Notes under the pieces: model-generated
The model's database searches: none
What the model saw: only the letters and a program-made list of their open reading frames with translations
Told to the model about the DNA's origin: nothing
Position numbers and translations under genes: made by a program
Shown here: in pieces, positions 6,040 through 48,041 of the stretch
How positions within the stretch are numbered: position 1 is the first letter of the stretch
Layout: each line of letters opens with the position of its first letter
Assembly (NCBI RefSeq): GCF_949987535.1
Contig: NC_080075.1
Span: 5,378,606-5,442,605, forward strand
Source of the DNA: Balaenoptera acutorostrata
Taxonomy: Eukaryota; Chordata; Mammalia; Artiodactyla; Balaenopteridae
Length of the DNA: 64,000 nt
Direction of reading: 5' to 3'

Positions 6040-6052
6040 CATACTAGTTCTT
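6040..6052. repeat. TSD of the intron 5 L1, left copy
   Basis: CATACTAGTTCTT is identical to 13257-13269 and abuts the poly(T) end of the element. Confidence 0.9.
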
Positions 6053-9400: not shown

Positions 9401-10180
9401 TTCTAGGTATTTTTTTATTTCCTCTTTGATTTCTTCAGTGATCTCTTGGTTATTTTGTAGTGTATTGTTTAGCCTCCATGTGTTTGTATTTTTTACAGTT
9501 TTTTTCCTGTAATTGATATCTAGTCTCATAGCATTGTGGTCGGAAAGATGCTTAATATGATTTCAATATTCTTAAGTTTACCAAGGCTTGATTTGTGACC
9601 CAAGATATGATCTATCCTGAAGAATGTGCCATGAGCAATTGAGAAGAAAGTGTATTCTGTTGTTTTTGGATGAAATGGCCTATAAATACAATTATGTTCA
9701 GCTGGTCTAATGTGTCATTTAAAGCTTGTGTTTCCTTATTTATTTTCATTTTGGAGGATGTGTCCACTGGTGTAAGTGGGGTGTTAAAGTCTCCTACTAT
9801 TATTGTGTTACTGTCGATTTCCCCTTTTAGGTCTGTTAGCATTTGTCTTATGTATTGAGGTGCTCCTATGTTGGGTGCAAAAATATTTACATTTGTTATA
9901 TGTTTTTCTTGGATTGATCCCTTGATCATTATGTAGTGTCCTTCTTTGTCTCTTGTAATAGTCTTTATTTTAAAGTCTATTTTTTCTTACATGAGTATTG
10001 CTACTCCAGCTTTCTCTTGATTTCCATTTGCATGGAATACCTTTTTCCATCCCCTTACTTTTAGTCTGTACGTGTCCCAGGTCTGAAGTGGGTCTCTTGA
10101 CAGCATATATACGGGTCCTGTTTTTGTATCCATTCAGATAGTCTGTGTCTTTTGGTTGGAGCATATAAGCCATTTACATT
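6430..10180 (-). pseudogene. L1 ORF2, broken
   Basis: Endonuclease remnants lie near 9612-10173. The reverse transcriptase ([17 protein letters not shown] near 8810; [14 protein letters not shown] near 8120) and the C-terminal CW..C region (near 6830) follow. At least eight frame breaks separate the open segments, so it is dead. Confidence 0.88.
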
Positions 10181-10269
10181 TAAGGTAAGTATCTATATGT
10201 ATTTTCCTATCACCATTTTCTTAATTGTTTTGGGTTTGTTTTTGTAGGTCTTTTCCTTCTCTGTGTTTC

Positions 10270-11159
10270 CCTTCTAGAGAAGTTCCTTTAGCATTTGTTG
10301 TAAAGCTGGTTTGGTGGTACTAAATTCTCTTAACTTTTGCTTGTCTGTAAAGGTTTTAAATTCTCCATCGAATCTGAATGAGATCCTTGCTGGGTAGAGT
10401 AATCTTGGTTGTAGATTTTTCCCTTTCATCACTATAAATATGTCCTGCCACCCCCTTCTGGTTTGCAGAGTTTCTGCTGAAAGTTCAGCTATTAACCTTA
10501 TGGGGATTCCCTTGTATGTTATTTGTTGCTTTTCCCTTGCTGCTTTTAATATTTTTTCTTTATATATAATTTTTGATAGTTTGATTAATATGTGTCTTGG
10601 CATGTTTCTCCTTGGGTTTATCCTGTATGGGACTCTCTGTGCTTCCTGGACTTGATTGACTATTTCCTTTCCCATATTAGGGAAGTTTTCAACTATAATC
10701 TCTTCAAATATTTTCTCAGACCCTTTCTTTTTCTCTTCTTCTGGGACCCCTATAATTCGAATGTTGGTGTTTTTAATGTTGTCCCAGAGGTCTCTGAGAC
10801 TGTCCTCAATTCTTTTCATTCTTTTTTCTTTATTCAGCTCTGCAGCAGTTATTTCCACTAGTCTGTCTTCCAGGCCACTTATCCGTTCTTCTGCCTTAGT
10901 TATTCTCCTATTGATTCTTTCTATTTTTAATTTCATTTATTGTGTTGTTCATCATTACTTGTTTGCTCTTTAGTTCTTCTAATTCCTTGTTAAACGTTTC
11001 TTGTATGTTCTCCATTCTATTTATGAGATTTTCGATCATCTTTAGTATCATTACTCTGAATTCTTTTTCAAGTAGACTGCTTATTTCCTCTTCATATATT
11101 TGGTCTGGTGGGTTTTTACCTTGCTCCTTCATGTGCTGCATATTTCTCTGTCTTCTCAT
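10270..11159 (-). pseudogene. L1 ORF1, broken
   Basis: The ORF1p frame is visible from MRRQRNMQHMKEQGK (near 11159) to ALQQMLKELL (near 10274). Reading passes between two frames near 10908-10936, so there is at least one frameshift. Conserved text DLWDNIKNTNIRIIGVPEEE lies near 10760. Confidence 0.85.
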
Positions 11160-13256
11160 TTTTTTTAACTTACTGTGTTTGGGGTCTCCTCTTCACAGCC
11201 TGCAGGTTCGTAGTTCCTCTTATTTCTGGTGGGTGAGGTTGGTTCAGTGGCTTGTGTAGGCTTCCTTGTGGAGGGGATTGGTGTCTGTGTTCTGGTGGGT
11301 GGGCTGAATCTTCTCTTTCTGGTGGGCAGGGCCTCGTCCGGTGGTGTGTTTTGGATTGTCTGTGAATTTAGTATGACTTTCGGCAGCCTGTCTGCTAATG
11401 GGTGGGGTTATGTTCCTGTCTTGCTAGTTGTTTGGCATGGGATGTCCAGCACTGGGGCTTGCTGGCCATTGGGTGGAGCTGGGTTTTAGTGTTGAGACAG
11501 ACCTCTGGGAGAGCTCTCACCAATTAATATTACATGGGGCCGTGTGGTCTCTGGTTGTCCAACATCCTGGACACGGCTCTCCCACCTCAGAGGTCCAGGC
11601 TCGACACCCAGCCAGAGCACCAAGAGCGTCTGCTAGCCGCACAGCACAGAAGAAAAGGAAGGTTAAAAAAAAAAAAAAGAACAGACAGAACCCCAAAACA
11701 AATGATAAAAGCAAAACTAAACAGACAAAATCACAGAAACATACAAACACACACACACACACACACACACTCACAAAGAGAAAAAAAAACAAAAAAAACC
11801 CCGAACAGACAGAACCCCAAGACAAACGGTAAGAGCAAAACTAAACAGACAAAATCACACAAAGAAACATACACACAGACACTCAGAAAAAGAGAGGAAA
11901 AAAAAGAGAGCAACCAAACCAATAAACAAACCCACAGATGAAAACAAACACTAAAAACTAAACTAAGTTAAACATAAAACCAAAAACAAATCAAATGCAG
12001 AAAGCAAACCCTGAGTCCACAGTTGCCCCCAATGTCCCCCACCTCAATTTTGGGAACACTCGTTGTCTATTCAGGTATTCCATACATGCAGGGTTTACCA
12101 AGCCGATTGTGGGGATTTAGTCCGCTGCTCCTGAGGCTGCAGAGTGAGATTTCCTTTCTCTTCTTTGTTCACGCAGCTCCTGGGGTTCAGTTTTGGTTTT
12201 GGCCCCACCTCTGCATGTAGGTCACCCTCAGGCATCTGTTCCCTGCCCAGACAGGACAGGATTAAAGCAGCGGCTGATTAGGGCTCTCTTGCTCACTCAG
12301 GCCCGGGAGGTATAGTAGTCACAATTGGGTTGCCGGGAGTGCCTGCGGTGGCAGAGGGCAGCATGATGTTGCAACAGCCTGAGGCGCGCCGTGTGTTATC
12401 CTGGGGAAGTTGACCCTGGATCACAGGAGCCTGGCAGTGGCGTGCTGCATAGGCTCCTGTGAGTGTGTGGGTAGTGACCTGTGCTTGCACACAGGACTCT
12501 TGATGGCAGTGGCAGCAGAGGTAGCGGTCTGTGTCCGCCTCTGGCATCCAACATGATAGCTGTGGCTCATGCCCATCTCTGGAGCTTGCTTAGGCAGTGC
12601 TTTGCTGTCTGCAGGCTCACATAGCAGGAAGCCCCTCTCCTCATGCACCCCGAAACAATGGTCTCTTGCCTCTCCGGCAGGTCCAGACTCTTTCCTGGAC
12701 TCCCTCCCGGCTAGCTGTGGCACACTAACCCACTTCAGGCTGTCTTCACACAGCCAACCCCAGTCCTCTCCCTGGGGATCTGACCTCTGAAGCCTGAGCC
12801 TCAGCTCCCAGCCCCCGCCCGCCCTGGCGGGTGAGCAGACAAGCGTCTCAGGCTGGTGAGTGCTGGTCAGCACCGATCCTCTGTGCAGGAATCTCTCTGC
12901 TTTGCCCTCTGCACCCCTGTTGCTGCGCTCTCCTCTGTGGCTCCAAAGCTCCCCACCCCATCCCCGCCTCCACCAGTGAAGGGGCTTCCTAGTGTGTGGA
13001 AACTTTTCCTCCCTCACAGCTCCCTCCCAGAGGTGCAGGTCCCATCCCTATTCTTTTGTCTCTTTTTTTCCCTTTTTCTTTTGCCCTACCCATGTACGTG
13101 GGGATTTTCTTGCCTTTTGGGAAGTCTGAGGTCTTCTGCCAGCGTCCAGTAGGTGCTCTGTAGCAGTTGTTCCACACGAAGATGTAGTTTTGATGTATCT
13201 GTGGGGAGGAAGGTGATCTCCGCGTCTTACGCCACCACCATCTTGAAGGTCTCCAA

Positions 13257-13269
13257 CATACTAGTTCTT
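13257..13269. repeat. TSD of the intron 5 L1, right copy
   Basis: CATACTAGTTCTT is identical to 6040-6052 and abuts the L1 5' end. Confidence 0.9.
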
Positions 13270-21393: not shown

Positions 21394-24301
21394 CTAAATT
21401 TAAAAAATATATTTTTCATTTCAAAGAGTATTTTGGGGTATCAGTTACATTCCTAGTTAGCACCGTTCTATGAACCATGGGGAGACAAGAAACCTATGTG
21501 ATCTCTAGACCTTAGGTAATTTACAATCTAATTGAAGACATATGTATATTTATATAAGATATATACATACCTCCCCAGAAAACTGATAAAGAATATTCTA
21601 CAGGTTACAGTGAGAGCTATAAATATGAGGTCTACTGGGAGTTGAGAGAAGAGAGGCTTATGTAGGCTGGAAGGAAGACTTTATGGAGCAGGATTGGACC
21701 TGGTCCATAAAGGAGTTTGGTAGGAGAATGTGAACAGGCAGGAAGGTCCTCCATGTCTCTCAATGGACCACCATCTAATGTCACCAAGCCCCTTTGCAAG
21801 ATTGCAAGCCCAGGTGAATAAGGACTGCGTCCTCTGTGTTACAGGTCCAATCACACCTTCTCCACCTATCAGGGGTTGGACTTTGTCGAGGTCCAAAATA
21901 ACTCTTCACCAACCTTCTATCTGGAGGCCTAAGCAATAGTCAAAGTACGTGGCAAGGTTAAGGGGAGCAGATATCACGTCACTTCTTAAGTCACCCAGGC
22001 TTCCACTGCATCAACAAGGAAACAGCCTCACACAAAACCAACTTAAAGACTGGTTAGTCTCAGGAAGGCCTTTCTCATTGTTCTCCTCAGTTTCCACCCA
22101 GAGGGCAAGCCTCACCATTCATCTGTCCTGTCATAAGCTCACATTCTCATGTGAATCGTTTTTTCCAACGCAGAGGCCCACTCCTGAACTCTTTCTCAAA
22201 CCTTTTCCCGTTTCTTCAGTAAGTGCCAATCTACAAAATAACAACTGGGATAATTGAGTCCATTTATTCATTCAAATATTTTTCTTGCTCTTTGCTAGCA
22301 TTGTGAGAGGCCCTGGTCATGCACGAGTAAGATGCAGTCCCTCTCCTCAGAAAGCTCACAATCCTTATAATAGAGAAGACAAACATACAACCCCTAATTA
22401 TATAAAGATGTAATCACTCAAGTTTTGAGCTCTCTCCTCACTGAGTCAACCATGGTCAGAACTCACTCTCCACCATTGGAACAGTGTGAATGCATCCATT
22501 GTGGAAGGTGAAACTCAATAATGCCAAAATGAACATTTGTTTATTTATTTATCATGTGAACAATAACTTTCTAGAAGTCTTATATTATTTTTTCTGTAAA
22601 CACCCTATAGGGGAAACCAAATTATAATCAGATCATTGCTTACTGAGTAGAATGGGAATTACTAGTAAGAGTCAGATGCTGATAATATGAGTGATGTTGC
22701 CTTCTTTAGAATAGGGACAAACAAAAAGTGTGAGTGTTTGGATTATGGAAACCTCGTTCCTGGGTGGGGCTTGGGTGGGTGTAATCTCTGGGACTCCATT
22801 TCTATGCTCTGATCTTGATCAGTCCCCTTTCTGATTGACTCATTCAAGACATACAAATATTTAATCATATTAAAGTTTAGCCTGGACAGCTGAAGAACCA
22901 TTCTGCCCTTTTTCAGTAACTAGAACTGTCTCTATTGTAATCCGCTGCATTATTTTAGAGTTTTAATACTCAGAAGGCTTTGATTTTTAGCTAAAAATGA
23001 GTGGTGATATCTCACTAATAAGATTTTAATTAGTAATATTAGCAGCCAAAATTTGAAAATTTTTGTCTTTCTAGCACCAAGAAGAACAATTCTGACCCAG
23101 CATGTACAACGGTTCACAGGTACAAAATAGACGAGAGCATCCTGGCTAAGCTGTAGTGGTCATAGGAGAGTGGTGAAGATGAAACTGGTGAGGGAGTCAG
23201 GAGCCCAATCATAGAAAACCGTGAACAGGGGAGGAGCACCTGAAGCTGTCTGTGCAAGGGACCAAGGTGTGCATAGTTGCCTTTGAGCACAATCTGTCTG
23301 GTTGCTGTGTGGGAAAGGATTAAAATGGGGCAATCCTAACGACTAGGGAACAATTTAAGAAGTTATTTCCATACACTAAGGCTGAATAGAACATGAACTA
23401 AGGCAGTACACTGGCGATAACCAGGAGGGAAGAAAAAACAGTGATTTTAAGCAGTTCTAATTCGCAGTCTTAGTGACAAATTTGGACTATGGAGATGGAA
23501 CAGGACCGGTATGGTCCCAGCTTAGGGATGCAAAAGTGTCCTTAGATAGGAGATGGAATGCAAAGAAAATACAGAAGAATGATCAGATTTGAGATTAAGA
23601 TAAAAAAGTGGCTCTAGACATGGTGAATCTGGTGAGTTGTGTGATGGGAATGTCTGCATGGAATCTATGTTAGGTTGTTGGATGAAGTATCTGGAGATGG
23701 GAGAAAGGAGAGTTGGGAGCCATCTGTGTGCGATGGTTCTATGAGCCTTCCACCTGAATGCAGTCAAAGCAAGAACTGAAGATGACCATGGCTGAAACTG
23801 GGAACCCCTAAAATCTAAGACCCAAACACAGAGAATGAGAACACAGTAATGATTACTAAGGAAAAGCCAGGGAGTGGGGAGATAAAGAATGAGTAAGTTT
23901 CAGAAGAGAGAGAAGAGGAAGCTCTCAGCTCATGGGCATGTCCAGCAGTGATGGACACCACAAGAGATCAAGATCAGGATTGGAAATGAATGTTAGATTT
24001 GGCAGCTGGGAAGCCAGTAGTAACTCAGCAACTATAGATCCAGTATGGTGGTGGGGCAGAAATCATTGTATTGAGAAGTAATTTGGAATTGAAAAAAAAA
24101 AAAGGAGACATTCTTGCTTTCCCAAATGTGGATACTTCACAGTCTATGAGCATGGATGTTCTAACACCTGAACCTTCTCCTCTGGAACACCTTCATTCTC
24201 AAGGACCACCTCTACTCCTATGAGTCTTCAATTCTCCCTGCCACAAGCCGGATTTTGTCATTATCCAGAACTACTCTGTCTCTAAATTCTTAAAAATAAA
24301 A
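21394..24301. other. Intron 3, left part, no gene seen
   Basis: About 2.9 kb without a recognised gene. An ancient repeat of the 'ATTCATTCAAATATT ... GTGAGAGGCCCTGG' type is present near 22260-22400, and a short A-tract lies near 24092-24103. Otherwise it looks like unique intron sequence. Confidence 0.4.
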
Positions 24302-24314
24302 ATATACCATTCTG
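24302..24314. repeat. Target-site duplication, left copy (L1 + OR block)
   Basis: ATATACCATTCTG directly precedes the L1 5' end. It is preceded by an A-rich TTAAAAATAAAA stretch, which suits an L1 endonuclease target (TT/AAAA). Its partner is at 33551-33563. Confidence 0.85.
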
Positions 24315-26258
24315 GGGGGACCTTCAAGATGGTGGAGGAGTAAGACGTGGATATCACCTTCCTCCCCACAAATACATCAAAAATACATCTACATGTGGAA
24401 CAACTCCTACAGAACAACTACTGAACGCTGGCATAAGACCTCAGTCTTCCAAAAAGGCAAGAAAATCCCCACATGCTTGGGTAGGGTAAAAGAGAAAAGA
24501 AAAAACAGAGACAAAAGAATAGGGATGGGACCTGTCCCTTGGAGAGGGAGCTGTGAAGAAGGAAAAGTTTCCACACACTAGGAAGCCCCTTCACTGGTGG
24601 AGATGGGGGGTGGTAGGGGGGAAGCTTCAGAGCCACGGAGGAGAGCACAGCAATAGGGGTGCAGAGGGCAAAACGAAGAGATTCCCACACAGAGGACTGG
24701 TGCCGACCAGCACTCACCAGCCTGAGAGGCTTGTCTGCTCACCCGCCGGGACGGGCAGGGGCTGGGAGTTGAGCCTCGGGCTTCAGAGGTCAGATCCCAG
24801 GGAGAGGACTGGGGTTGGCTGCGTGAACACAGCCTGAAGGCGGCTAGTGCACCACAGTTAGCTGGGAGGGAGTCCGGGAAAAAGTCTGCAGCTGCCGAAG
24901 AGGCGAGAGACCATTGTTTTGGGTTGTTTGAGGAGAGGGGATTCCTTCCCCAGCTGCCCACAGAAGGCAGAGCACCACCTAAACGAGCTCCAGAGACGGG
25001 CGTGAGCCGCGGCTATCAACGCAGACACCAGAGATGGGCATGAGATGCTAAGGCTGCTGCTGCTGCCACCAACAATCCTGTGTGCGAGCACAGGTCACTA
25101 TCCACACCACCACCCCCCCGGGAGCCTGTGTAACCCGCCACTGCCAGGGTTCCGTGATCCAGGGACAAGTACCCCAGGAGAACACACAGCGCGACCCAGG
25201 CTGTTGCAACATTATGCTGGCCTCTGCCACCGCAGGCTCACCCTGCATTCCAATAACTACCATACCCTTCCCTTCCCCCGGCCCAAATGAGCAAGAGCCC
25301 CCTAATCAGCAGCTGCTTTAACCCCCTCTTGTCTGGGTGGGAACAGACGCCTGGGGTGACTTACACACAGAGGTGGGGCCAATCCAAAACTGAACCCCAG
25401 GAGCTGTGTGAACAAAGAAGAGAAAGGGAAATCTCTCCCAGTAGCCTCAGGAGCAGCGGATTAAACCTCCACAATCAACTTGATGTACCCTGCATCTGTG
25501 GAATACCTGAATAAACAACAAATCACCCCAAAATTGAGGCAGTGGACTTTGAGAGCAACTGTAAACTTGGGTTTTACTATCTGTGACTGATTTGTTTCTG
25601 ATTTTTATGTTTATCTTAGTTTAGTTTTTAGCACTTGTTATCACTGGTGGATTTGTTTATTGGTTTGCTGGCTCTCTTCTTTTTTTTATTATTTTTAATT
25701 TTTTAATTTTAATATTATTTTTTATTTATTTACTTTTTTCTTTCTTTTTGTCTCACTTTTCTTCTGAGCTGTGTGGCTGACAGGGTCTTGGTGTTCCGGC
25801 CTGGTGTCAGGCCTGAGCCGCTGTGGTGGGAGAGCCGAGTTCAAGATGTTGGACCACCAGAGACCTCCCAGCCTCACGTAATATCAACTGGCAAGAGTTC
25901 TCCCAGAGATTTCCATCTCAACACTAAGACCTGGGTCAACCCAACAGCCAGCAAGTTCCAGTGCTGGATGCCTCATGCCAAACAACTAGCAAGACAGGAA
26001 CACAACCCCACCTATTAGCAGAGAGGCTGCCTAAAATCACACTAAGTTCACAGACACACCACCAGACGTGGCCCTGCCCATCAGAAAGACAAGATATAGC
26101 CCCACCCACCAGAACACAAGCACCAGTCCCCTCCACCATGAAGCCTACACAATCAACTGAACCAACCTCACCCACTGGGGGCAGACACCAAAAACAATGG
26201 GAACTATGAACCTGCAGCCTGAGAAAGGGAGACACAAACACAAAAAGTTAAATAAAAT

Positions 26259-27147
26259 GAGAAGACAGAGAAATATGCAGCAGATAAAGGAGTAAGGTAA
26301 AAACCCACCAGACCAAACAAATGAAGAGGAAATAGGCAGTCTACCTGAAAAAGAATTCAGAGTAATGATAGTAAAAATGATCCAAAATCTTGGAAATAGA
26401 ATGGAGAAAATACAAGAAATGTTTAACAAGGAACTAGAAGATCTAAAGAGCAAACAAACAATGATGAACAACACAGTAATTGAAATTAAAAATTCTCTAG
26501 AAGGAATCAATAACAGAATAACTGAGGCAGAAGAACAGATAAGTGACCTGGAAGATAAAATAGTGGAAATAGCTACCACAGAGTTGAATAAAGAAAAAGG
26601 AATGAAAAGAATTGAGGATAGTCTCAGAGACCTCTGGGACAACATTAAACACACTAACATTCAAATTATAGGCGTCCCAGAAGAAGAGAAAAAGAAAGGG
26701 TCTGACAAAATATTTGAAGAGATTATAGTAGAAAACTTCCCTAATGTGGGAAAGGAAATAGTCAATCAAGTCCAAGAAGCACAGAGAGCCCCATACAGGA
26801 TAAACCCAAGGAGAAACACACCAAGACACATATTAATCAAATTATCAAAAATTATATACAAACAAAAAATATTAAAAGCAGCAAGGGAAAAGCAGCAAAA
26901 AACATGCAAGGAAATCCCCATAAGGTTAATAGCTGATCTTTCAGCAGAAACTCTGCAAGCCAGAAGGGGGTGGCAGGACATATTTAAAGTGATGAAAGGG
27001 AAAAACCTACAATTAAGGTTACTCTAACCAGCAAGACTCTCATTCAGATTTGATGGAGAAATTAAAACCTTTACAGACAAGCAAAAGTTAAGAGAATTCA
27101 ACACCACCAAACCAGCTTTACAACAAATGATAAAGGAACTTCTCTAG
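26259..27147 (+). pseudogene. L1 ORF1 (RNA-binding protein), broken
   Basis: ORF1p is the coiled-coil RNA-binding protein that coats L1 RNA. The frame can be followed from ATGAGAAGACAGAG to a final CTTCTCTAG, with coiled-coil rich in E/K/N/Q and the conserved stretch DLWDNIKHTNIQIIGVPEEE. In-frame stops occur near 26291 and at about 27026, so no intact protein is made. Confidence 0.85.
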
Positions 27148-27205
27148 GCGGGAAACACAAGAGAAGGGAAAGACCTACAAAAACAAACCAAGAACAATTA
27201 AGAAA

Positions 27206-30200
27206 ATGGTAATAAGAACACACACACTGATAGTTACCTTAAGTGTAAATGGATTAAATGCTCCAACCAAAAGACATAGACTGTCTGAATGGATACAAAA
27301 ACAAGACCCATATATATGTTGTCTACAAGAGACCCACTTCAGACCTAGGGACACATACAGACTGAAAGTGAGGAGATGGAAAAAGATATTCCATGCAAAT
27401 GGAAATCAAAAGAAAGCTGGAGTAGCAATTCTCATAACAGACAAAATAGACATTAAAATAAAGACTATTAAAAGAGACAAAGAAGGACACTACATAATGA
27501 TAAAGGGGTCAATCCAAGAAGAAGATATAACAATTGTAAATATTTCTGCACCCAACACAGAAGCACCTCAATACATAAGACAAGTGCTAACAGCCAAAAA
27601 AGGGGAAATCGACAGCAACACAAAAATAGTAGAGGACTTTAACACCTCACTTACACCAGTGGACACATCCTCCAAAAAGAAAATAAATAAGGAAACACAG
27701 CTTTAAATGACACATTAAACAAGATGGACTTAATTGATATTTATAGGACATTCCACCCAAAAACAACAGAATAAACTTTCTTCTCCAGTGCCCATGGAAC
27801 ATTCTCCAGGATAGATCATATCTTGGGTCACAAATCAAGCCTTGGTAAATTTAAGAAAACTGAAATCATATCAAATATCTTTTCCGACCACAATGCTATG
27901 AGACTAGATATCAATTACAGGAAAAAAACTGTAAAAAATACAAACACATGGAGGCTAAACAATACACTACTAAATAACTAAGAGATCACTGAAGAAATCA
28001 AAGAGGAAATCAAAAAATACCTAGAAACAAATGACAATGAAAACACGATGACCGAAAACCTATGGGATGCAGCAAAAGCAGTTCCAAGAGGGAAGTTTAC
28101 AGCAATACAATCCTACCTCAAGAAACAAGAAAAACCTCAAATAAACAACCTAATCTTACACCTAAAGCAGTTAGAGAAAGAAGAACAAAAAATACCCAAG
28201 GTTAGCAGATGGAAAAAAAGCATAAAGATCAGATCAGAAATAAATGAAAAAGAAATGAAGGAAACAGCTGCAAAGATCAATAAAACTAAAAGCTGGTTCT
28301 TTGAGAAGATAAACAAAATTGATAAACCATTAGCCAGACCCATCAAGAAAAAAAGGGAGAAGACTCAAGTTAATAGAATTAGAAATGAAAAAGGACAAGT
28401 AACAACTGACACTGCAGAAATACAAAGGATCATGAAAGATTACTACAAGCAACTATATGCTAGTAAAATGGACAACCTGGAAGAAATGGACAAATTCTTA
28501 GAAAAGCACAACTTTCTGAGACTGAACCAGGAAGAACTAGAAAATATGAACAGACCAATCACAAGCACTGAAATTGAAACTGTGATTAAAAATCTTCCAA
28601 CAAACAAAAGCCCTGTACCAGATGGCTTCACAGGAGAATTCTATCAAACATTTAGAGAAGAGCTAACACCTATCCTTCTCAAACTCTTCCAAAATATAGC
28701 AGAGGGAGGAACACTCCCCAACTCATTCTACGAGGCCACCATCACCCTGATACCAAAACCAGACAAAGATGTCACACACACAAAAAAGAAAACTACAGGC
28801 CAATAGCACTGATGAACATAGATGCAAAAATCCTCAACAAAATACTAGCACATTAAAAGGGTCATACACCATGATCAAGTGGGTTCTATCCCAGGAATAC
28901 AAAGATTCTTCAATATACGCAAATCAATCAATGCAATATACCATATTAACAAATTGAAGGATAAAAACCATATGATCACCTCAATAGATGCATGAAAAAC
29001 TTCTGACAAAATTCAACACCCATTTATAATAAAAACTCTCCAGGAAGTAGGCATAGAGGGAACCTATCTCAGTATAATAAAGGCCATATATGACAAACCC
29101 ACAGCCAACATCGTTCTCAATAGTGAAAAACTGAAACAATTTCCTCTAAGATTAGGAACAAGACAAGGTTGCCCACTCTCACCTCTATTATTCAACAGAG
29201 TTTTGGAAGTTTTAGTCACAGCAATCAGAGAATAAAAAGAAATAAAAGGAATCCAAATCAAAAAAGAAGAAGTAAAACTGTCACTGTTTGCAGATGACAT
29301 GATACTATACATAGAGAATCTTAAAGATGCTACCAGAAAACTACTAGAGCTAATCAATGAATTTGGTAAAGTAGCAGGATACAAAATTAATGCACAGAAA
29401 TCTCCTGAATTCCTATACACTAATGATGAAAACTCTTAAAGAGAAATGTAGGAAACACTCCCACTTACCATTGCAACGAAAAGAATAAAATACCTAGGAA
29501 TAAACCTACCTAAGGAGACAAAAGACCTGTATGCAGAAAACTATAAGACACTGATGAAGGAAATTAAAGATGATACAAACAGATGGAGAGATATACCATG
29601 TTCTTCAATTGGAAGAATCAACATTGTGAAAATGACTATAACACCCAAAGCAATCTACAGATTCAGTGCAATCCCTATCAAACTGCCAATGGCATTTTTC
29701 ACAGAACTAGAACAAAAAATTTCACAATTTGTATGGAAACACAAAAATCCCCGAATAGCCAAAGCAATCTTGAGAAAGAAAAACGGAGTGGAGGAATCAG
29801 GCTTCCTGACTTCAGACTATACTACAAAGCTACAGTAATCAAGACAGTATGGTACTGGCACAAAAACAGAAATATAGATCAATGGAACAGGACAGAAAGC
29901 CCAGATATAACCCCATGCACATATGGTTCCCTTATCTTTCTCAAAGGAGGCAAGAATATACAATGGAGAAAAGACAGTCTCTTCAATAAGTGGTGCTGGG
30001 AAAACTCGACAGCTACATGTAAAAGAAAGATATTAGAACACTTCCTAACACTGTATACAAAAATAAACTCAAAATGGATTAAAGACCTAAATGTAAGGCC
30101 AGACACTATCAAACTCTTAGAGGAAAACATAGGCAGAACACTCTATGACATAAATCACAGCAACATCCTTTTTGACCCACCTCCTAGAAAAATGGGAATA

Positions 30201-31006
30201 AAAACAAAAATAAACAAATGGGACCTAATGAAACTTAAAAGCCTTTGCACAGCAAAGGAAACCATAAAAAAGATGAAGGGACAACCCTCAGAATGGGAGA
30301 AAATATTTGCAACTGAAGCAGCTGACAAAGGATTAATCTCCAAAATATACAAGCAGCTCATGCAGCTCAGTATCAAAAAAACAGACAACCCAGTCCAAAA
30401 ATGGGCAGAAGACTTAAATAGACATTTCTCCAAAGTAGATATATAGATTGCCAACAAACACATGAAAGGATGTTCAACATCACTAATTATTAGAGAAATG
30501 CAAATCAAAACTACAATGAGGTGTCACCTCACACCAGTCAGAATGGCCATGATCAAAAAATCTACAAACAATAAATGCTGGAGAGGGTGTGGAGAAAAGG
30601 GAACCCTCTTGCACTGTTGGTGGGAATGTAAAGTGATACAGCTACTATGGAGATCAGTATGGAGGTTCTTTAAAAAACTAAAAATAGAACTACCATACGA
30701 CCCAGCAATCCCACTACTGGGCATATACCCTGAGAAAACCATAATTCAGAAAGAGTCATGTACCACATGTTCATTGCAGCACTATTTGCAATAGCCAGGA
30801 CATGGAAGCAATCTAAGTGTCCATCGACAGATGAATGGATAAAGAAGATGTGGCACATATATGCAAAGGAATATTACTCAGCCATGAAAAATGAAATTGA
30901 GTTGTTTGTAGTGAGGTGGATGGACCTAGAGTCTGTCATACAGAGTGAAGTAAGTCAGAAAGAGAAAAGCAAATGCCGTGTGCTAAGACATATATATCGA
31001 ATCTAA
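27206..31006 (+). pseudogene. L1 ORF2 (endonuclease/reverse transcriptase), broken
   Basis: The APE-like endonuclease starts near 27206 (VNGLNAPTKRHRLSEW, CCLQETH). The reverse transcriptase follows ([18 protein letters not shown] near 28600; [10 protein letters not shown] near 29290), then the C-terminal cysteine region ([19 protein letters not shown] near 30580). There are many stops and frameshifts, for example near 27706, 28806, 29438 and 30446, so it is a dead copy. Confidence 0.9.
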
Positions 31007-31430
31007 AAAAAAAAAAAAAGGTTCTGAAGAACCTAGGGGCAGGACAGGAATAAAGGCGCAGACGTAGAGAATGGACTTGAGGATATGGGGAGGGGGAAGG
31101 GTTAGCTGGGACAAAGTGAGAGAGTGGCATGGACATATATACACTACCACATGTAAAATAGATAGCTAATGGGAAAGCAGCTGTATCGCACAGGGAGATC
31201 AGCTCGATGCTTTGTGACCACCTAGAGGGGTGGGATAGGGAGGATGGGAGGGAGACACAAGAGGGAGGGAATATGGGGATATATGTATACGTATAGCTGA
31301 TTCACTTTGTTATACAGCAGAAACTAACACACTGTTGTAGAACAATTATACGCCAATAAAGTTGTTAAAAGAAAAAGAGGACCTTTCTGACAAGGTCAGT
31401 GGGTGAAATAAGAACATGGCTAGCTGATCC

Positions 31431-32372
31431 TCACTTGGCGAAATGTTGATTGTTTCTGAAAAGAATCCCCAGAGCCAATTTCACGTCTCTGTTCCTAAGG
31501 CTATAGATGAAGGGGTTCAGCATGGGAGTCACCACTGTGCACATCGATGAGGCAATCATGTCTTTGTCATTGGAATTGCCCAATGAGGAGGAAAAGTACA
31601 GTGCCATAATCATTCCATAGAATAGAGACGCCACAGAGAGATGGGAGCTGCAGATGGACAGGGCCTTGCAGGTCCCTTTGGTAGAAGGGACCTTCAGGAT
31701 CGAGACCCCAGTGTGGTCATAAGAGACCAGAATGCCAGTCAATGGAAGAATGACAACCGCAGCCCTTGCAGTGAATATAACCAACTCATTGAAAGAGGTG
31801 TCTGAGCAGGACAGCTTGAGTAGGATGGGGAGGCTACAGAAGAAGTGGGGAATGATGTTGTCAGCCCAGAAGGACACCAGGGCCAGCAGGAGGGTGTGCA
31901 GAAGGGCACTGCCACAGGAGAGAGTCCAGGACCCAGCCACCAGCAGCACACACAGCCTCTGCATCATGACGGTGGTGTAGCGGAGAGGGTGACAGATGGC
32001 CACATACCTGCCACATGCCATCACGGCGAGGAGGAGATTATCAACCCAACCTAAAAGTATATAAAAACACACCTGTGAAATGCACCCTGCGTATGTGATA
32101 GATTGGTATTGAATCTGCATGTTCATCAGTATCTCTGGGACAGTGACAGATGACAAGGAGACATCGGTGAGGGCCAAGTGGCTGAGGAAGAAGTACGTGG
32201 GGGTGTGGAGGCGAGAGTCCAGCCTGATGAGCAGGAAGATTAGCAGGTTCCCCAGCACCGTGGTCAGGTACACGCCCAGGAACAGGGCAAAGAGCACGCC
32301 CTGCTGCTCTGGAAGGGTGGGGAGCCCCAGGAGGAGGAACTCGGACACACTGCTGTGGTCCTCCCTCCTCAT
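31431..32372 (-). CDS. Olfactory receptor, family 1 (OR1J-like), intact frame with degraded motifs
   Basis: This single-exon, 313-codon frame encodes a seven-helix class A GPCR of the olfactory receptor family, closest by recollection to OR1J. Helix landmarks are LGNLLIFLLI (TM1), PTYFFLSHLALTDV (TM2; usually PMYFFLS), MACGRYVAICHPL (end of TM3; usually MAYDRYVAIC), KALSICSSHLS (TM6; usually KAxSTCxSHL) and PMLNPFIYSLRN (TM7). Loss of the aspartate of DRY and several other changes at near-invariant positions suggest relaxed constraint or loss of signalling despite the open frame. A possible splice acceptor (TTCATTCCCAG) sits about 16 nt before the ATG, as in normal OR genes. It lies inside IL1RL2 intron 3, in the same sense as IL1RL2, and within a block bracketed by the TSD of the neighbouring L1. 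It was therefore probably carried here as an L1 3' transduction. Confidence 0.85.
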   Translation of the reverse strand: MRREDHSSVSEFLLLGLPTLPEQQGVLFALFLGVYLTTVLGNLLIFLLIRLDSRLHTPTYFFLSHLALTDVSLSSVTVPEILMNMQIQYQSITYAGCISQVCFYILLGWVDNLLLAVMACGRYVAICHPLRYTTVMMQRLCVLLVAGSWTLSCGSALLHTLLLALVSFWADNIIPHFFCSLPILLKLSCSDTSFNELVIFTARAAVVILPLTGILVSYDHTGVSILKVPSTKGTCKALSICSSHLSVASLFYGMIMALYFSSSLGNSNDKDMIASSMCTVVTPMLNPFIYSLRNRDVKLALGILFRNNQHFAK

Positions 32373-32465
32373 GCCATTCTTATCTCTGCTGGGAATGAAT
32401 AGAAACTGGAAATGTCAGGAACTTAGACATACTGAGCATAGCAACTACCATATGGTCACATACTT

Positions 32466-32592
32466 TCTCCAAGTCGCTGTGTCACTGCACAGACAAATCT
32501 CACTGCATTGCACTCACACTTTGGTGCCTCATCCAGTCTGGTGAGAACAGTGAAGTGTGATTTGTCTGCACACTGACACAGTCACTTGGAGA
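32466..32592. repeat. Inverted repeat upstream of the olfactory receptor
   Basis: The left arm at 32466-32507 (TCTCCAAGT..CTGTGTCA..CAGACAAATC) is the imperfect reverse complement of the right arm at 32548-32592. About 40 bp separates the arms, and about five differences were counted by eye. It could be a small palindromic DNA-transposon remnant or a hairpin. No family was recognised. Confidence 0.6.
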
Positions 32593-32753
32593 CATCATTC
32601 AAACATCCATGAAAGAAACATCAATCAAACTCTTCAGCTGAAATCACGAAGAGCTCATTCTTTTTTTTTAATATAGTGAAGACATTACGATAGACTTTAG
32701 GGGGAGAGTAATAAATAAGACACAGTCCCTTCCATGGCTTTATAGCCAGACAG

Positions 32754-32801
32754 CTTATGTGTGTGTGTCTGTGTTGCACACACAAACACACACACACACC
32801 G
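32754..32801. repeat. (TG/CA)n microsatellite
   Basis: Alternating TG then CA tracts (TGTGTGTGTGTCTGTG ... CACACACACACACC) lie within the transduced block. Confidence 0.8.
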
Positions 32802-32885
32802 CTGAAAGCATTATTGGGAAAGTAATGTACCATGTATAGAATAAGTGCTGAACACATAAACTCACCTCTTATCATTAGAATGACA

Positions 32886-32916
32886 AGAAGGAAGGAAGGA
32901 AGGAAGGAAGGAAGGA
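32886..32916. repeat. (GGAA)n microsatellite
   Basis: A tandem AAGG run of about seven units lies within the transduced block. Confidence 0.85.
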
Positions 32917-32931
32917 GAAAAGGGAACATTA

Positions 32932-33545
32932 TGGCAGTCCCTCAGAAATTTAAACATAGAATTACCATATGATCCAGAAATTTCACTTCTGATAATATAT
33001 CCAAAAGAACTGAAAGCAGGGGCCAAAGAGGTATTTGTACACCAATGTTTAAAGCAGCATTATTCACAATAGCCGAATGATGGAAACAATCTGTGTCCAT
33101 TGAAAAATGAATGGATAAACAAAATGTGGTCTATACATACAATGGAATATTATCCAGCCTTAAAAAGGAAAGAAATCCTGACACATGCTACAACACGGAT
33201 GAACCGTGAAGACATTACGCTAAGAAGAATCAGCCGGTCACAAAAGTGTAAATACTATAAGATTCCACTTATATGAGATTCCTAGAATAGTCAAATTCAT
33301 AGAGACAAAAAATAGAATGGTGGTTGCCAGGGGTTTGGGGGCAGGGAGGAAAATGAGGCGTTATTGTTCAGTGGGTACAGAGTTTCCATCTGGGAAGATA
33401 AAAAAGTTCTGGAGGTGGATGGTGATGATGGTTGTACAACAATGTGAACGTACTTAATGCCACAGAACTGTTCACTGAAAAATCACTGAAATGCTAAATT
33501 TTATGTTATACATATTTTAGCACAATAAAAAATTGTTAATTTAGA
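32932..33545 (+). mobile_element. Old L1 (L1M-type) 3' end
   Basis: This contains the typical end of L1 ORF2 and 3' UTR: accATATGATCCAG-type text, 'ATGGATAAACAAAATGTGG', then a 3' UTR ending in CACAATAAAAAATTG. It is more diverged than the neighbouring full-length L1. It seems to have supplied the polyadenylation signal that ended the transduced transcript. Confidence 0.75.
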
Positions 33546-33550
33546 AAAAT

Positions 33551-33563
33551 ATATACCATTCTG
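33551..33563. repeat. Target-site duplication, right copy (L1 + OR block)
   Basis: ATATACCATTCTG is an exact 13-bp match to 24302-24314. It follows an A-rich GAAAAAT and lies 2.2 kb beyond the L1's own 3' end. Confidence 0.85.
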
Positions 33564-33589
33564 ATGATAATTTTTTATTATTCCACCTG

Positions 33590-34890
33590 TTTCATTCTTT
33601 TATTTTAACTAAGTAATAATATCTAGTATTTATTTATTAAGTAATTACTATGTACCCACACTGAACTAAGGGCTTAGTGGATAGATTATTTCAATTACTC
33701 TTCCAAACAATTCTATGAGGCCATGTCTCCAAGACTGGATTTGTTTCCAAAAAAAAAAAACATTCTAGCTCTTTTAAGCAGAAAAGGATTTAAAACAGAA
33801 TATTAGGTGCTGAAGCACACTGCAGAACTAGTTCGCGTGATAGCTGCTTCCTCCCCCACCATCCTGATGGTGGGAATTGAGACTTTGAGATATACCACCT
33901 GCAAGTCAGGGACCGGGAGTTGCCACTTACACAACTGCAGCAAGTGAAGTCCCAGCACGTTTGGTGAAGCTACACCAACAATAAGTCAGAAGACATGCCT
34001 ATTGCTTCTCAGCTCCCACGAAGCTGGAGACTGGGCCCCGGAACACTGTGGCAGAAAGCCCACGTCCGGTAGAAAAGCAGAAAATCACCATACTCACTTC
34101 AGCTTTTCAGTGAAGCCAGCTGGAGAAACTGAACCACATCCAGAACCTTAGCTATAGGTTAGGAAAACGTAGGGTGTGGTTCTGGGTGCTTTGTTCTTAT
34201 TTTTTATCAATAGCTTTGTAACCTCTATAGTATAAAGAGCCTCCCCATGAATGGGGAGCCTGTACCCACCACATCCATCAGGTGATATGGTGAACTTTCT
34301 AGCCATCCAACCCACTTTTCCATCTTAACCTGAATCAGTCCTTGGACCCCTCTAATTTCTCCTAATCACCAGTATCCTTCAGGCATCATTTCCTTTCCTG
34401 TCCAACCTAGACTCACGTGGCCATCACTTGAATAACCCCCTTTGAAGTCCTCAAGTCAAGGATTAAGGAAACCCTTCATCCTTCCAGTGGATTCATCCAG
34501 AGAAACCCCACGCTGAGTTCATCCTGCCATCCCTCTCCTACACCCCTACAACCAGATGAGCACAACAGGAGCTAAACACACAAACATAAACAAATCCATG
34601 GTCCTCACCGTAGAAAGTCTTTGCATCTCCTTCAACTCTCTCTCCCACCTGCTTGCCTGTCTGCTCTTTCACACTCTCCACATAACATCTCCCTCCACTT
34701 GACAGGGGCAACCGGGGGCAGCAGGAATGAGTTCCCTCCCCCTGCTTACCCTCCCCTTCCCCCTCATTCTATCCGTTCTACTTCACACCCTCTCTTGATG
34801 ATCCCTGCTTCCTAACTCAGTTTCTGAAATAGCCTAATGATCAACGTGGAACCATACTCAAGCCCTTCCAACTGATTCACCACATGAGGA
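33590..34890. other. Intron 3, right part, no gene seen
   Basis: A MIR-like fragment may lie at about 33605-33730 (TTAAGTAATTACTATGTACC, ACAATTCTATGAGGCCATG). The remainder has no exon similarity, and the short open frames are not supported. Confidence 0.35.
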
Positions 34891-34894
34891 TTTC

Positions 34895-35335
34895 ACTGCA
34901 AGAATGTCCATCGACAGGTGAATGAATAAAGAAGATGTGGTACATATATACAATGGAATACTACTACTCAGCCATTAAAAAAATGAAAAAATGCCATTTG
35001 TAGCAACATGGATGGACCTAGAGATGATCACGCCGAGTGAAGTAAGTCAGACAGGGCAAGACAAATGTTATATGATATCATTTATATGTGGCATCTAAAA
35101 CATGATACAACCAAACTAATTTACAAAACAGAAAGAGACTCACAGACATAGAAAACAAACTTATGGTTACCAAAGGGGAAAGGGGGGTGGGGAGGCGAGG
35201 GGAGGGATAAATTAGGAGTTTGGGACTAGCAGATACAAACGACCATATATAAAATAGATAAACAACGTCCTACTGTATAGCACAGGGAACCATATTCAAT
35301 ATTCTGTAATAAACCATAATGGGAAAGAAAAAAAT
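34895..35335 (+). mobile_element. L1 3' end, 5'-truncated
   Basis: It starts AATGTCCATCGACAGGTGAA (end of ORF2), passes ATGGAATACTACTACTCAGC, and ends in the 3' UTR (AACCATAATGGGAAAG) with an A-rich tail. Truncated, non-coding copy. Confidence 0.85.
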
Positions 35336-35885
35336 CAGAATAAAATAAAATACAAGATAAGGGCATTCATTGCCACATTCCTTGTGAGAGGGGAAAACAG
35401 AAACAAACTAAATGAATGTGAAATACATAACAGAGAGGATTGACAAAGGCAAAAATTGGTGCTTTGAAAGGAGTAATAGAACTGACTGACAAATCTTTTA
35501 TAAGACTCATCAAGTGAGAAGGAGAAAGAGAGTGTGTGTGTGTGTGAGAGAGAGACAAAGACAGAGACAGAGAGAAACATATTGTAATGGGGATAAAAGA
35601 TGAAACTTACTACAGAAGCAGACATTAAAAGCAGAGAAATGATAAACCATTTCATGCCAGAGCATTTGAAATGTTTAATGAAATGAACAATTTCCTAGAA
35701 AACAATCTTACAAAAACCCATTCAAGAATAAATAAGAAATTTGTAGAATCCTATCACCATTAAAGAAATTGAAACAGTAGATAAAAACCTTCCCACAAAG
35801 AGTACTCATGACCCAGATGGTTGTACTGGCAAACGCTAACAAGCAGAGCTGGGGGAGAACTAATTCAGATATTAAATACCTCACC
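35336..35885 (+). mobile_element. Old L1 ORF2 fragment
   Basis: It contains a decayed match to the endonuclease/RT linker (ACTGACAAATCTTTTATAAG) and to NLPTNKxxxPDG (ACCTTCCCACAAAGAGTACT, then GACCCAGATGG). A (GT/GA)n tract lies near 35530-35575. Diverged and non-coding. Confidence 0.6.
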
Positions 35886-36524
35886 TGTGCGCCTCTGTGC
35901 CAAGGATATGCCTTTTCCATTATTATCCACCAGTGCAGTCAAGAAAAGAGAAGGTTTGAAGGTGAAAACACAAGGTGTAGGAAGGTGAGTATAGGAGGCC
36001 CTGTTTCCATAAAAAAAGAAAGGACTAGGAGGTATAGTTTTATTTTCTTGTACAGCATTACACAAGAATAATGCAAGGCCTGCAAGGAACCAATAACAGC
36101 AGCCACATGTCAGGGAAGGTGAGATGGACCTGGGCAAATATGAATCAGGAGTGGCAAGGGGACTTTCCGGGGCATGCCTTCTGATACTTCGTGATTCTTG
36201 AACCCTATGCGTGTACTACCCATTCAAAGAAACGACTTAATTAATCTTAATTAAAAAGAATAACGAAGGATAGTCTGAAAAGTAAGAATAATTGGGGGAG
36301 GGGTGGATTCCAATAATAAGCTATGACCAAGCTCTAATAACTACAAATTAAAAAAATAAGTAATTAGCAGCATTAGATTGTCAATAGCAATTAGTTAACA
36401 AATCTTACGTACACAAATCTCTCTCTTTACCCATTCTGCTTTAAAAGGTACAACTTAAACTAAAAAAACAAGTAGGTTTTAAAGAAGAGGAAGGAAAATA
36501 TCAATAGGAAAATTATTTTTTTAC

Positions 36525-43059: not shown

Positions 43060-43259
43060 CTTTTTTTTTTTATACTGCAGGTTCTTATTAGTCATCAATT
43101 TTATACACATCAATGTATACATATCAATCCCAATCACCCAATTCAGCACACCACCATCCCCACCCCACCGCGTTTTTACCGCCTTTGTGTCCATATGTCT
43201 GTTCTCTACATCTGTGTCTCAACTTCTGCCCTGCAAACTGGTTCATCTGTAACATTTTT

Positions 43260-46200
43260 CTAGGTTCCACATACATGCGTTAATATACGATATTTGTTTT
43301 TCTCTTTCTGACTTACTTCACTCTGTATGACAGTCTCTAGATCCATCCACGTCTCAACAAATGACTCAATTTCGTTCCTTTTTATGGCTGAGTAATATTC
43401 CATTGTATATATGTACCACATCTTCTTTAGCCATTCGTCTGTCGATGGGCATTTAGGTTGCTTCCATGACCTGGCTATTGTAAATAGTGCTGCAATGAAC
43501 ATTGGTGTGCATGTGTCTTTTTGAATTACGGTTTTTCTCTGGGTATATGCCCAGTAGTGGGATTGCTGGATCATATGGTAATTCTATTTTTAGTTTTTTA
43601 AGGAACCTCCATATTGTTCTCCATAGTGGCTGTATCAATTTACATTCCCACCAACAGTGCAAGAGGGTTCCCTTTTCTCCACACCCTCTCCAGCATTTGT
43701 TGTTTGTAGATTTTCTGATGATGCCCATTCTAACTGGTGTGAGGTGATACCTCATTGTAGTTTTGATTTGCATTTCTCTAATAATTAGTGATGTTGAGCA
43801 TCTTTTCATGTGCTTCGTGGCCGTCTGTATGTCTTCTTTGGAGAAATGTCTATTTAGGTCTTCTTCCCACTTTTGGATTGGGGTGTTCGTTTCTTTAATA
43901 TTGAGCTGAATGAGCTGTTTATATATTTTGGAGATTAATCCTTTGTCCATTGATCTGTTTGCAAATATTTTCTCCCATTCTGAGGGTTGTCTTTTCGTCT
44001 TGTTTATGGTTTCCTTTGCTGTGCAAAAGCTTTGACGTTTCATTAGGTCCCATTTGTTTATTTTTGTTTTTATTTCCATTACTCTAGGAGGTGGATCAAA
44101 AAAGATCTTGCTGTGATTTATGTCAAAGAGTGTTCTTCCTATATTTTCCTCTAAGAGTTTTATAGTGTCCAGTCTTACATTTAGGTCTCTAATACATTTT
44201 GAGTTTATTTTTGCGTATGGTGTTAGGGAGTATTCTAATTTCATTCTTTGACATGTAGCTGTCCAGTTTTCCCAGCACCACTTATTGAAGAGACTGTCTT
44301 TCCTCCATTGTATATCTTTGCATCCTTTGTCATAGATTAGTTGACCATAGGTGTGTGGGTTTATCTCTGGGCTTTCTATCTTTTTACATTGATCTATGTT
44401 TCTGTTTTTGTGCCAGTACCATATTGTCTTGATTACTGTAGCTTTGTAGTATAGTCTGAAGTCAGGGAGTCTGATTCCTCCAGCTCCGTTTTTCTCCCTC
44501 AAGACCGCTTTGGCTATTCAGGGTCTTTTGTGTCTCCATACAAATTTTAAGATTTTTTTGTTCTAGTTCTGTAAAAAATGCCATTGGTAATTTGATAGGG
44601 ATTGCATTGAATCTGTAGATTGCTTTGGGTAGTATAATCACTTTCACAATGTTGATTCTTCCAATCCAAGAACATGGTATATCTCTCCATCTGTTGGTAT
44701 CATCTTTAATTTCTTTCATCAGTGTCTTATAGTTTTCTGCATACAGGTCTTTTGTCTCCCTAGGTAGGTTTATTCCTAGGTATTTTATTCTTTTTGTTGC
44801 AATGGTAAATGGGAGTGTTTCCATAATTTCTCTTTCAGATTTTTCATCATTAGTGTATAGGAATGCAAGAGATTTCTATGCATTAATTTTGTATCCTGCA
44901 ACTTTACCATATTCATTGATTAGCTTTAGCAGTTTTCTGGTGGCAGTTTTAGGAATCTCTATGTATAGTATCATGTCATCTGCAAACAGTGACAGTTTTA
45001 GTTCTTCTTTTCCAATTTGTATTCCTTTTATTTCTTTTTCTTCTCTGATTGCCGTGGCTAGGACTTCCAGAACTATGTTGAATAATAGTGGTGAGAGTGG
45101 ACATCCTTGTCTCGTTCCTGATCTTAGAGGAAATGCTTTCAGTTTTTCACCATTGAGAACGATGTTTGCTGTGGGTTTGTTATATATGGCCTTTATTATG
45201 TTGAGGTAGGTTCCCTCTATGCCCACTTTCTGGAGAGTTTTTAATCATAAATGGGTGTTGAATTTTGTCAAAAGCTTTTGCTGCATCTATTGAGATGATC
45301 ATATGGTTTTTCTTCTTCAGTTTGTTAATATGGTGTATCACATTGATTGATTTGCATATATGGAAGAATCCTTGCATTCCTGGGATAAATCCCACTTGAT
45401 CGTGGTGTATGATCCTTTTAATGTGCTGTTGGATTCTGTTTGCTAGTATTTTGTTGAGGATTTTTGCATGTATATTCATCAGTGATATTAGTCTGTAATT
45501 TTCTTTTTTTGTAGTGTCTTTGTCTGGTTTTGGGACCAGGGTGATGGTGGCCTCATAGAATGAGTTTGGGAGTGTTCCTTCCTCTGCAATTTTTTGGAAG
45601 AGTTTGAGAAGGATAGGTGTTAGCTCTTCTCTAAATGTTTGATAGAATTCACCTGTGAAGCCATCTGGTCCTGGACTTCTGTTTGTTGGAAGATTTTTAA
45701 TCACAGTTTCAATTTCATTACTTGTGATTGGTCTGTTCATATTTTCTGCTTCTTCCTGTTTCAGTCTTGGAAGTTTATACCTTTCTAAGAATTTGTCCAT
45801 TTCTTCCAGGTTGTCCATTTTATTGGCATAAAGTTGCTTGTAGTAGTCTCTTAGGATGCTTTGTATTTCTGTGGTGTCTGTTGTAACTTCTTTTTCATTT
45901 CTGATTTTATTGATTTCAGTCCTCTCCCTGTTTTTCTTGATGAGTCTGGCTAATGGCTTATCAATTTTGTTTATCTTCTCAGAGAACCAGCTTTTAGTTT
46001 TATTGATCTTTGCTATTGTTTTCTTTGTTTCTATTTCATTTATTTCCGCTCTGATCTTTTTAATTTCTTTCCTTCTGCTATCTTTGGGTTTTGTTTGTTC
46101 TTCTTTCTCTAGTTCCTTTAGATGTAAGGTTAGATTGTTTACTTGAGATTTTTCTTGTTTCCTTAGGTAGGCTTGTATAGCTATAAACTTCCCTCTTAGA

Positions 46201-47078
46201 ACTGCTTTTGCTGCATCCCATAGGTTTTGGGTCATCGTGTTTTCATTGTCATTTGTCTATAGGTATTTTTTGATTTCCTCTTTGATTTCTTCAGTGATCT
46301 CTTGGTTATTTAGTAACATATTGTTTAGCCTCCATGTGTTTGTGTTTTTTACGTTTTTATCCCTGTAATTCATTTCTAATCTCATAGCGTTGTGGTCAGA
46401 AAAGATGCTTGATATGATTTCAATTTTCTTAAATTTACTGAGGCTTGATTTGTGACTCAAGATACGATCTATCCTGGAGAATGTTCCATGCGCACTTGAG
46501 AAGAACGTGTAATCTGCTGTTTTTGGATGGAATGTCCTATAAATATCAATTAAATCTATCTGGTCTATTGTGTCATTTAAAGCTTCTGTTTCCTTATTTA
46601 TTTTCATTTTGGATGATCTGTCCATTGGTGTAAGTGAGGTGTTAAAGTCCCCCACTATTATTGTGTTACTGTCAATTTCCTCTTTTATAGCTGTTAGCAG
46701 TTGCCTTATGTATTGAGGTGCTCCTATGTTGGGTGCATATATATTTATAATTGTTATATCTTCTTCTTGGATTGATCCCTTGATCATTATGTAGTGTCCT
46801 TCCTTGTCTCTTGTAACATTCTTTATTTTAAAGTCTATTTTATCAGATATGAATATAGCTACTCCAGCTTTCTTTTGATTTCCATTTGCATGGAATATCT
46901 TTTTCCATCCCCTCACTTTCAGTCTGTATGTGTCCCTAGGTCTGGAGTGGGTCTCTTGTAGACAACATATATATGGGTCTTGTTTTTGTATCCATTCAGC
47001 AAGCCTGTGTCTTTTGGTTGGAGCATTTAATCCATTCACGTTTACGGTAATTATCGATATGTATGTTCCTATGACCAT
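43260..47078 (-). pseudogene. L1 ORF2, few disruptions
   Basis: The endonuclease runs 47078-46257 (VNVNGLNAPTKRHRLAEW, CCLQETHSRPRD). A stop at 46257 is followed by the same frame to 45180 (RT palm start [17 protein letters not shown] near 45660). A frameshift near 45200 leads to the segment with [10 protein letters not shown] (near 44980). A stop near 44875 and another frameshift near 44480-44500 precede the C-terminal part ([19 protein letters not shown] near 43680). Four disruptions were counted by frame arithmetic. Confidence 0.9.
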
Positions 47079-47136
47079 TTTCTTAATTGTTTTGGGTTTG
47101 TTTTTGTAGGTCCTTTTCTTCTCTTGTGTTTCCCAC

Positions 47137-48041
47137 TTAGAGAAGTTCCTTTAGCATTTGTTGTAGAGCTGGTTTGGTGGTGCTGAATTGTCTTAGCTTT
47201 TGCTTGTCTGTAAAGCTTTTGATTTCTCCATCAAATCTGAATGAGATCCTTGCCAGGTAGAGTAATCTTGGTAGTAGGTTCTTCCCTTTCATCACTTTAA
47301 GTATATCATGCCACTCCCTTCTGGCTTGTAGAGTTTCAGCTGAGAAATCAGCTGTTAACATTATGGGAGTTCCCTTGTATGTTATTTGTCGTTTTTCCCT
47401 TGCTGCTTTCAATAATTTTTCTTTGTCTTTAATTTTTGCCACTTTGATTACTATGTGTCTCGGCGTGTTTCTCCTTGGGTTTCTCCTGTATGGGACTCGC
47501 TGTGCTTCCTGGACTTGGGTGGCTATTTCCTTTCCCATGTTAGGGGAGTTTTCGAGTATAATCTCTTCAAATATTTTCTCTGGTCCTTTCTCTCTCTCTT
47601 CTCCTTCTGGGACCCCTATAATGCGAATGTTGTTGCGTTTAATGTTGTCCCAGAGGTCTCTTAGGCTGTCTTCATTTCTTTTCATTCTTTTTCTTTAGTC
47701 TGTTCCGCAGCAGTGAATTCCACCATTCTGTCTTCCAGGTCACTTATCCGTTCTTCTGCCTCAGTTATTCTACTATTGATTCCTTCTAGTGTAGTTTTCA
47801 TTTCAGTTATTGTATTGGTCATCTCTGTGTGTTTGTTCTTTAAATCTTCTAGGTCTTTGTTAATCATTTCTTGCATCTTCTCAATCTTTGCCTCCATTCT
47901 TATTCTGAGGTCCTGGATCATCTTCACTATCATTATTCTGAATGCTTTTTCTGGAAGGTTGCCTATCTCCACTTCATTTAGTTGTTTTTCTGGGGTTTTT
48001 TCTTGTTCCTTCATCTGGTATATAGCCCTCTGCCTTTTCAT
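47137..48041 (-). pseudogene. L1 ORF1, one frameshift
   Basis: The frame starts MKRQRAIYQMKEQEKTPEKQ at 48041, runs through a coiled coil to about 47682, shifts frame there, and ends ALQQMLKELL at 47137. Conserved DLWDNIKRNNIRIIGVPEGE lies near 47650. A single frameshift inactivates an otherwise well-kept RNA-binding protein. Confidence 0.9.

Follow-up and report, generated by a model that had tools for sequence, protein, structure and literature searches.

A probable L1 3' transduction of an olfactory receptor frame into an intron of IL1RL2 in Balaenoptera acutorostrata

Described 3' transductions and the composite in the minke whale

3' transductions account for ~10% of the L1 and SVA insertions in the human reference genome and are accompanied by target-site duplications of 4 to 25 bp (PMC4862182). 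The products treated in the available part of that paper contain a full L1, its 3' flank, and a new poly(A) signal, with one short duplication around the whole, and arise when the weak AATAAA of the L1 is skipped and a downstream signal is used. The composite described here, found in a 64-kb stretch of DNA from Balaenoptera acutorostrata (the window), resembles these insertions in its full L1, its 3' flank, its putative new poly(A) signal, and the single short duplication. It differs from those presented there in its cargo, a 2.17-kb piece in which a complete olfactory receptor (OR) frame lies antisense, and in the two AATAAA signals that would have been passed; in addition, it is an old copy with a short tail and a presumed source.

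Two further systems bear a partial likeness to this locus. The AMAC1 gene family was spread by SVA-mediated 3' transduction (PMC9917352), which is likewise a case of a retrotransposon spreading a gene to other chromosomes. As far as the accessible text goes, several copies were made there by SVA, in contrast to the one copy here, which would be the work of an L1 and is probably dead. In B. acutorostrata itself, the out-of-cluster OR XM_028166200 is called a pseudogene and is expressed in skin only (PMC11012115). Both receptors lie away from the OR clusters of this species, but the frame described here is open, and the available part of that study proposes no mobile element for XM_028166200. 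Whales have few intact ORs, according to the portions available of two papers (PMC13299492, PMC11012115). L1 3' transduction is known already, as is the spread of a gene family through SVA elements. No description of an OR carried by an L1 was found in the open-licence PMC literature, searched by titles and abstract openings, and the available part of PMC13174262 makes no mention of "olfactory."

The composite insertion, its boundaries, and its host gene

The 13-bp sequence ATATACCATTCTG is present in two exact plus-strand copies in the window, which bracket a full-length L1 together with 2174 bp of other DNA, in which the OR frame lies ahead of the tail of an old L1 (Table 1). The earlier note, made from the sequence alone, had placed a 13-bp repeat against the 5' end of the L1, with its partner at the far end, and the analysis bears this out: the L1 starts directly after the left copy, and both copies are exact. 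The note's estimate for a chance match (about 3000/4^13, very unlikely) is close to the expectation from a first-order Markov model of the window, 7.3e-5 for an exact plus-strand copy in 3 kb and 5.3e-5 in 2185 bp. At up to two mismatches, three further places match ATATACCATTCTG (38005, 58660, and 60933), all on the minus strand, with a chance expectation of 2.29 matches in the window. The repeat extends to 16 of 17 bases if the preceding A-run is included (24298-24314 versus 33547-33563) and is confined to this stretch, the 40-base flanks agreeing at only 14/40 positions upstream and 13/40 downstream. TT/AAAA is the L1 endonuclease motif, and the left copy lies near a site of this type. At the right end, an A-run starts at 33545, 15 nt after the AATAAA at 33524, and is followed by the right copy; this tail is very short, with five A and then T (AAAAAT) before the repeat. 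The 7-bp sequence AGAAAAA occurs at both ends of the carried segment, at 31370 and 33543.

Table 1. Features of the composite insertion and its surroundings (window coordinates)
Feature	Position	Strand	Basis
IL1RL2 intron holding the composite, 15.1 kb	21394-36524	-	tblastn; flanking exons 36707-36525 and 21393-21229
TTAAAA, possible L1 endonuclease site (TT/AAAA)	24290-24295	+	sequence
Left target-site duplication copy, ATATACCATTCTG	24302-24314 (24298-24314 with A-run)	+	motif search, sequence
Full-length L1 with broken ORFs	24315-31376	+	ORFs, comparison with other L1 copies of the window
AATAAA of the L1 itself, passed by the proposed transcript	31355-31360	+	motif search
Putatively transduced segment, 2174 bp including short terminal A-run	31377-33550	+	sequence
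OR1J-like olfactory receptor frame, 313 aa, ATG to TGA, open	31431-32372	-	ORFs, Pfam, protein search, trees
Second AATAAA, likewise passed by the proposed transcript	32710-32715	+	motif search
Portion of an old L1 tail (70.5-76% similarity to further L1 pieces in the window)	32922-33205 (about)	+	sequence comparison
AATAAA that probably ended the transcript	33524-33529	+	motif search
Right target-site duplication copy	33551-33563	+	motif search, sequence

The 3' end of the L1 lies at about 31376 (about 31378 in the earlier note), the point at which the similarity to two further L1 copies in the window breaks off as well; the stretch 31360-31430 consists of an A-rich L1 tail followed by unique DNA. 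The note had named an L1 alone, with its own target-site duplication, as a contrary case, and no duplication of a quality like that of the outer 13-mer was found at this end. The left flank 24281-24314 shares no 7-mer with 31340-31480, and the best ungapped candidate, at 31377, agrees at 8 of 13 positions, a value that 4387 of 20000 shuffles equaled or exceeded. On this ground, the idea of a separate duplication at the 3' end of the L1 was rejected. The last nine bases of the candidate agree at eight positions, with a chance of 0.0058. The L1 end AAAAAGAGGACCTTTCTG (31367-31389) resembles the left flank AAAAATATACCATTCTG.

A second full-length L1 on the minus strand (6055-13254) served as a control. 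It carries the 13-bp repeat AAGAACTAGTATG at 13257-13269, just before its start, and at 6040-6052, just after its A-tail, and nowhere else in the window, an ordinary clean target-site duplication. This single control indicates that the method recovers ordinary L1 boundaries in the window.

The host gene was located by tblastn with a human IL1RL2 query, which yielded six exons on the minus strand at E values below 1e-2; the intron bounds in Table 1 are match ends, and the splice sites were assigned by visual inspection. At 41118, a weak candidate for the first exon (E = 15) is identical to the start of P0240, the IL1RL2 protein of B. acutorostrata, and if it is counted, the composite appears to lie in intron 3, so that the earlier assignment to this intron holds. 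Over 342 columns, the joined exon translation agrees with P0240 except for 2 mismatches and 5 gap positions, which all fall at hand-made exon joins; it is 90% like the Mesoplodon protein. As a minus-strand gene, IL1RL2 runs opposite to the L1 and in the same direction as the OR. The IL1RL2 exons at 4010-41118 on the minus strand contain no stop in the matched stretches; thus, the gene looks open despite the insertion.

Kinship and decay of the carried receptor

The receptor frame shows the OR domain Pfam 7tm_4 (E = 2.2e-42). It is antisense to the L1, between the L1 end and the right repeat, as described before, and its stop codon lies 54 bp from the L1 end. A protein search with the first 186 residues gave, among the best 120 matches listed, an ENA entry (P0023) as the nearest protein, with one residue different (H220R); no NCBI-named protein among these 120 is as close. 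P0023 comprises five member sequences on two contigs, the longest contig being 2875 bases. The next matches listed, at 82-85%, are OR1J4-like and OR1J1-like proteins of cetaceans. In a tree of 37 rows (36 hand-picked of 239 proteins plus the window OR) and one of 17 rows (16 hand-picked rows plus the window OR, a selection that excludes P0023, P0127, and others), the receptor falls inside the cetacean OR1J group with supports of 100/96 and 100/98, respectively, on a branch of 0.14-0.15. The earlier guesses of an OR1J receptor and of a cetacean stand. Given this grouping with cetacean OR1J genes, the copy must have arisen within the whale lineage, and an ancient OR resident in the intron was rejected for the same reason. 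A processed retrocopy of an OR mRNA was rejected as well: the plus strand shows no T-run left of 31431, which would be the A-tail of the OR sense strand, in 31360-31430.

The signals for the position of the copy among whales, and hence its age, conflict. In the 17-row tree, the window OR groups with Mesoplodon at a support of 53/24, and neither the grouping of the window OR with balaenopterids (p-AU 0.367) nor that of Mesoplodon with balaenopterids (0.382) is rejected. T150 and T221, common to the window OR and Mesoplodon, point to Mesoplodon, whereas A119, which is S in 7/7 cetacean relatives and A outside, points to a split before the crown whales. A toothed-whale origin of the window itself, suggested by T150 and T221, was rejected on the match of IL1RL2 to B. 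acutorostrata. In all three species with both values, an OR1J protein and IL1RL2 are on sequences of unlike size (125.8 and 94.4 Mb, respectively, in B. acutorostrata; 136.9 and 92.0 Mb in Mesoplodon; 119.5 and 96.1 Mb in Eschrichtius). This suggests different chromosomes for the two, and the OR1J gene there would be a descendant of the source.

The receptor and the L1 have decayed about equally. In a three-way L1 alignment of 4795 columns, 209 (4.4%) carry substitutions private to the L1 of the composite, which also has 15 indel events of its own, 11 of them frame-breaking; divergence that predates the insertion is counted in these values. The third copy in this alignment is poorly aligned at its 5' end, and the indel count of that copy is too high as a result. 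A second L1 alignment gave 209 substitutions in 4803 columns and 16 indels. At a rate of 4.35%, neutral simulation of the OR yields 28 changed residues without CpG hypermutability and 32 with it; in the window OR, 37 residues are seen in 0/7 cetacean relatives, 8 of which are present in an outgroup, so that some may be old states. As a side observation, a large L1 piece on the minus strand (43255-48120), 87% like the composite's L1, carries 352 private changes in the same 4795 columns and is accordingly the older of the two.

The residues N5, M59, Y120, D121, and C169 are kept in 16/16 compared relatives and are changed in both the window OR and P0023. The changes Y120C, D121G, C169W, and N5D remove residues typical of a working OR; Y120 and D121 presumably belong to the DRY region, C169 is taken to be the second-loop cysteine, and N5 is taken to be the N-terminal glycosylation site. 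The loss of residues kept in all relatives compared suggests a dead receptor. The neutral odds of an open frame, calculated as the probability of no stop times that of no frame-breaking indel, are ~4-5%, or 1.5-2% if all indels of the second L1 alignment count. The open frame is mildly surprising at these odds, and the locus was chosen for its open frame. A variant of the transduction reading, whose probability is contained in that of transduction itself, holds that selection kept the frame open; these odds and the existence in ENA of a protein one residue off speak for it, but the five conserved residues are changed, the number of OR changes is about neutral, and the manner in which the locus was chosen also weighs against it, which makes this outcome very unlikely. 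The OR is probably a dead passenger, its frame left open by luck.

History of the insertion and its meaning

The composite was very probably formed by L1 3' transduction of an OR-bearing flank into the IL1RL2 intron. In a whale ancestor, the stop codon of an OR1J gene would have been followed, after ~54 bp, by a full-length L1 pointing the other way. The L1 transcript would have passed the element's own AATAAA, crossed the OR in antisense, and passed the AATAAA at 32710, and polyadenylation after the AATAAA of the old L1 tail would have given an RNA of ~9.2 kb. This RNA would have entered intron 3 of IL1RL2 by target-primed reverse transcription at a TTTT/A-type site, until then empty, with the 13-17 bp duplication as its trace, and the OR, carried as a passenger, would have decayed at about the pace of the L1. 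The old plus-strand L1 tail with an AATAAA between the L1 and the right repeat, on which the earlier proposal drew, is present. That proposal also had the transcript read through to the next poly(A) signal; a signal near the far end does exist, but it is not the next one, as the AATAAA at 32710 intervenes. The reading as a transduction is supported by the duplication around the whole composite and the lack of one of like quality at the L1 end, with further support from the normal control L1, the TT/AAAA-type site, the AATAAA followed by a short A-run, the cetacean OR1J kinship, and the similar decay of OR and L1. Against it stand the right-end tail of only five A, the AATAAA at 32710 that must be skipped, and the weak look-alike of the left flank at the L1 end. 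The last is the strongest point against transduction and is taken as a coincidence, though an unexplained one.

The main rival is a history of two steps, in which the L1 alone inserted with the ATATACCATTCTG duplication and a second retrocopy, made from an RNA that terminated in the old L1 tail and contained the OR in antisense, later entered the A-tail of the L1, before the right duplication copy. Such a history yields the same outer marks as transduction, and A-tails serve as L1 target sites, but it requires two events, and the segment is not known to contain a promoter. Its sole sequence support, the 7-bp repeat at both segment ends, is A-rich and of low complexity, and the two-step history is considered unlikely. 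The look-alike at the L1 end would fit an L1 that inserted by itself with the degenerate duplication GAGGACCTTTCTG (31377-31389), directly past its tail, in which case the OR either occupied the intron beforehand or arrived otherwise and the 13-mer at 33551 is a chance match. Agreement of this degree is common among shuffles, however, the expectation for an exact 13-mer is minute, and the OR copy dates from the whale lineage, so that this account is highly improbable. OR families often expand by duplication, and a segmental duplication that brought a block of L1 and OR1J into IL1RL2, without retrotransposition of the unit, is compatible with the tree and the decay taken alone. It explains neither why the 13-17 bp repeat begins precisely at the 5' end of the L1 nor why it ends 15 nt and an A-run after an AATAAA; a plain segmental duplication was rejected because it gives no reason for the short repeat, and it is the least credible of these histories.

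Formation by transduction would make this locus a well-marked case in which an L1 brought an entire single-exon protein frame into a different gene, apparently on a different chromosome. Most ORs are single-exon genes in repeat-rich clusters, and for this reason, L1 transduction could be a route by which ORs are scattered. IL1RL2 is an immune gene active in skin, and the OR, lying in the same sense, may be transcribed there. It is a long-shot guess that the carried OR could be the skin-only minke OR XM_028166200, as far as that receptor is described in the available text (PMC11012115); if true, the odd skin expression of the latter would be explained by an L1 move into IL1RL2. The same paper, in its available part, defines "intact" ORs by open frames (PMC11012115). 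The receptor described here is a warning that counts of "intact" whale ORs made by open frame can include decayed passengers.
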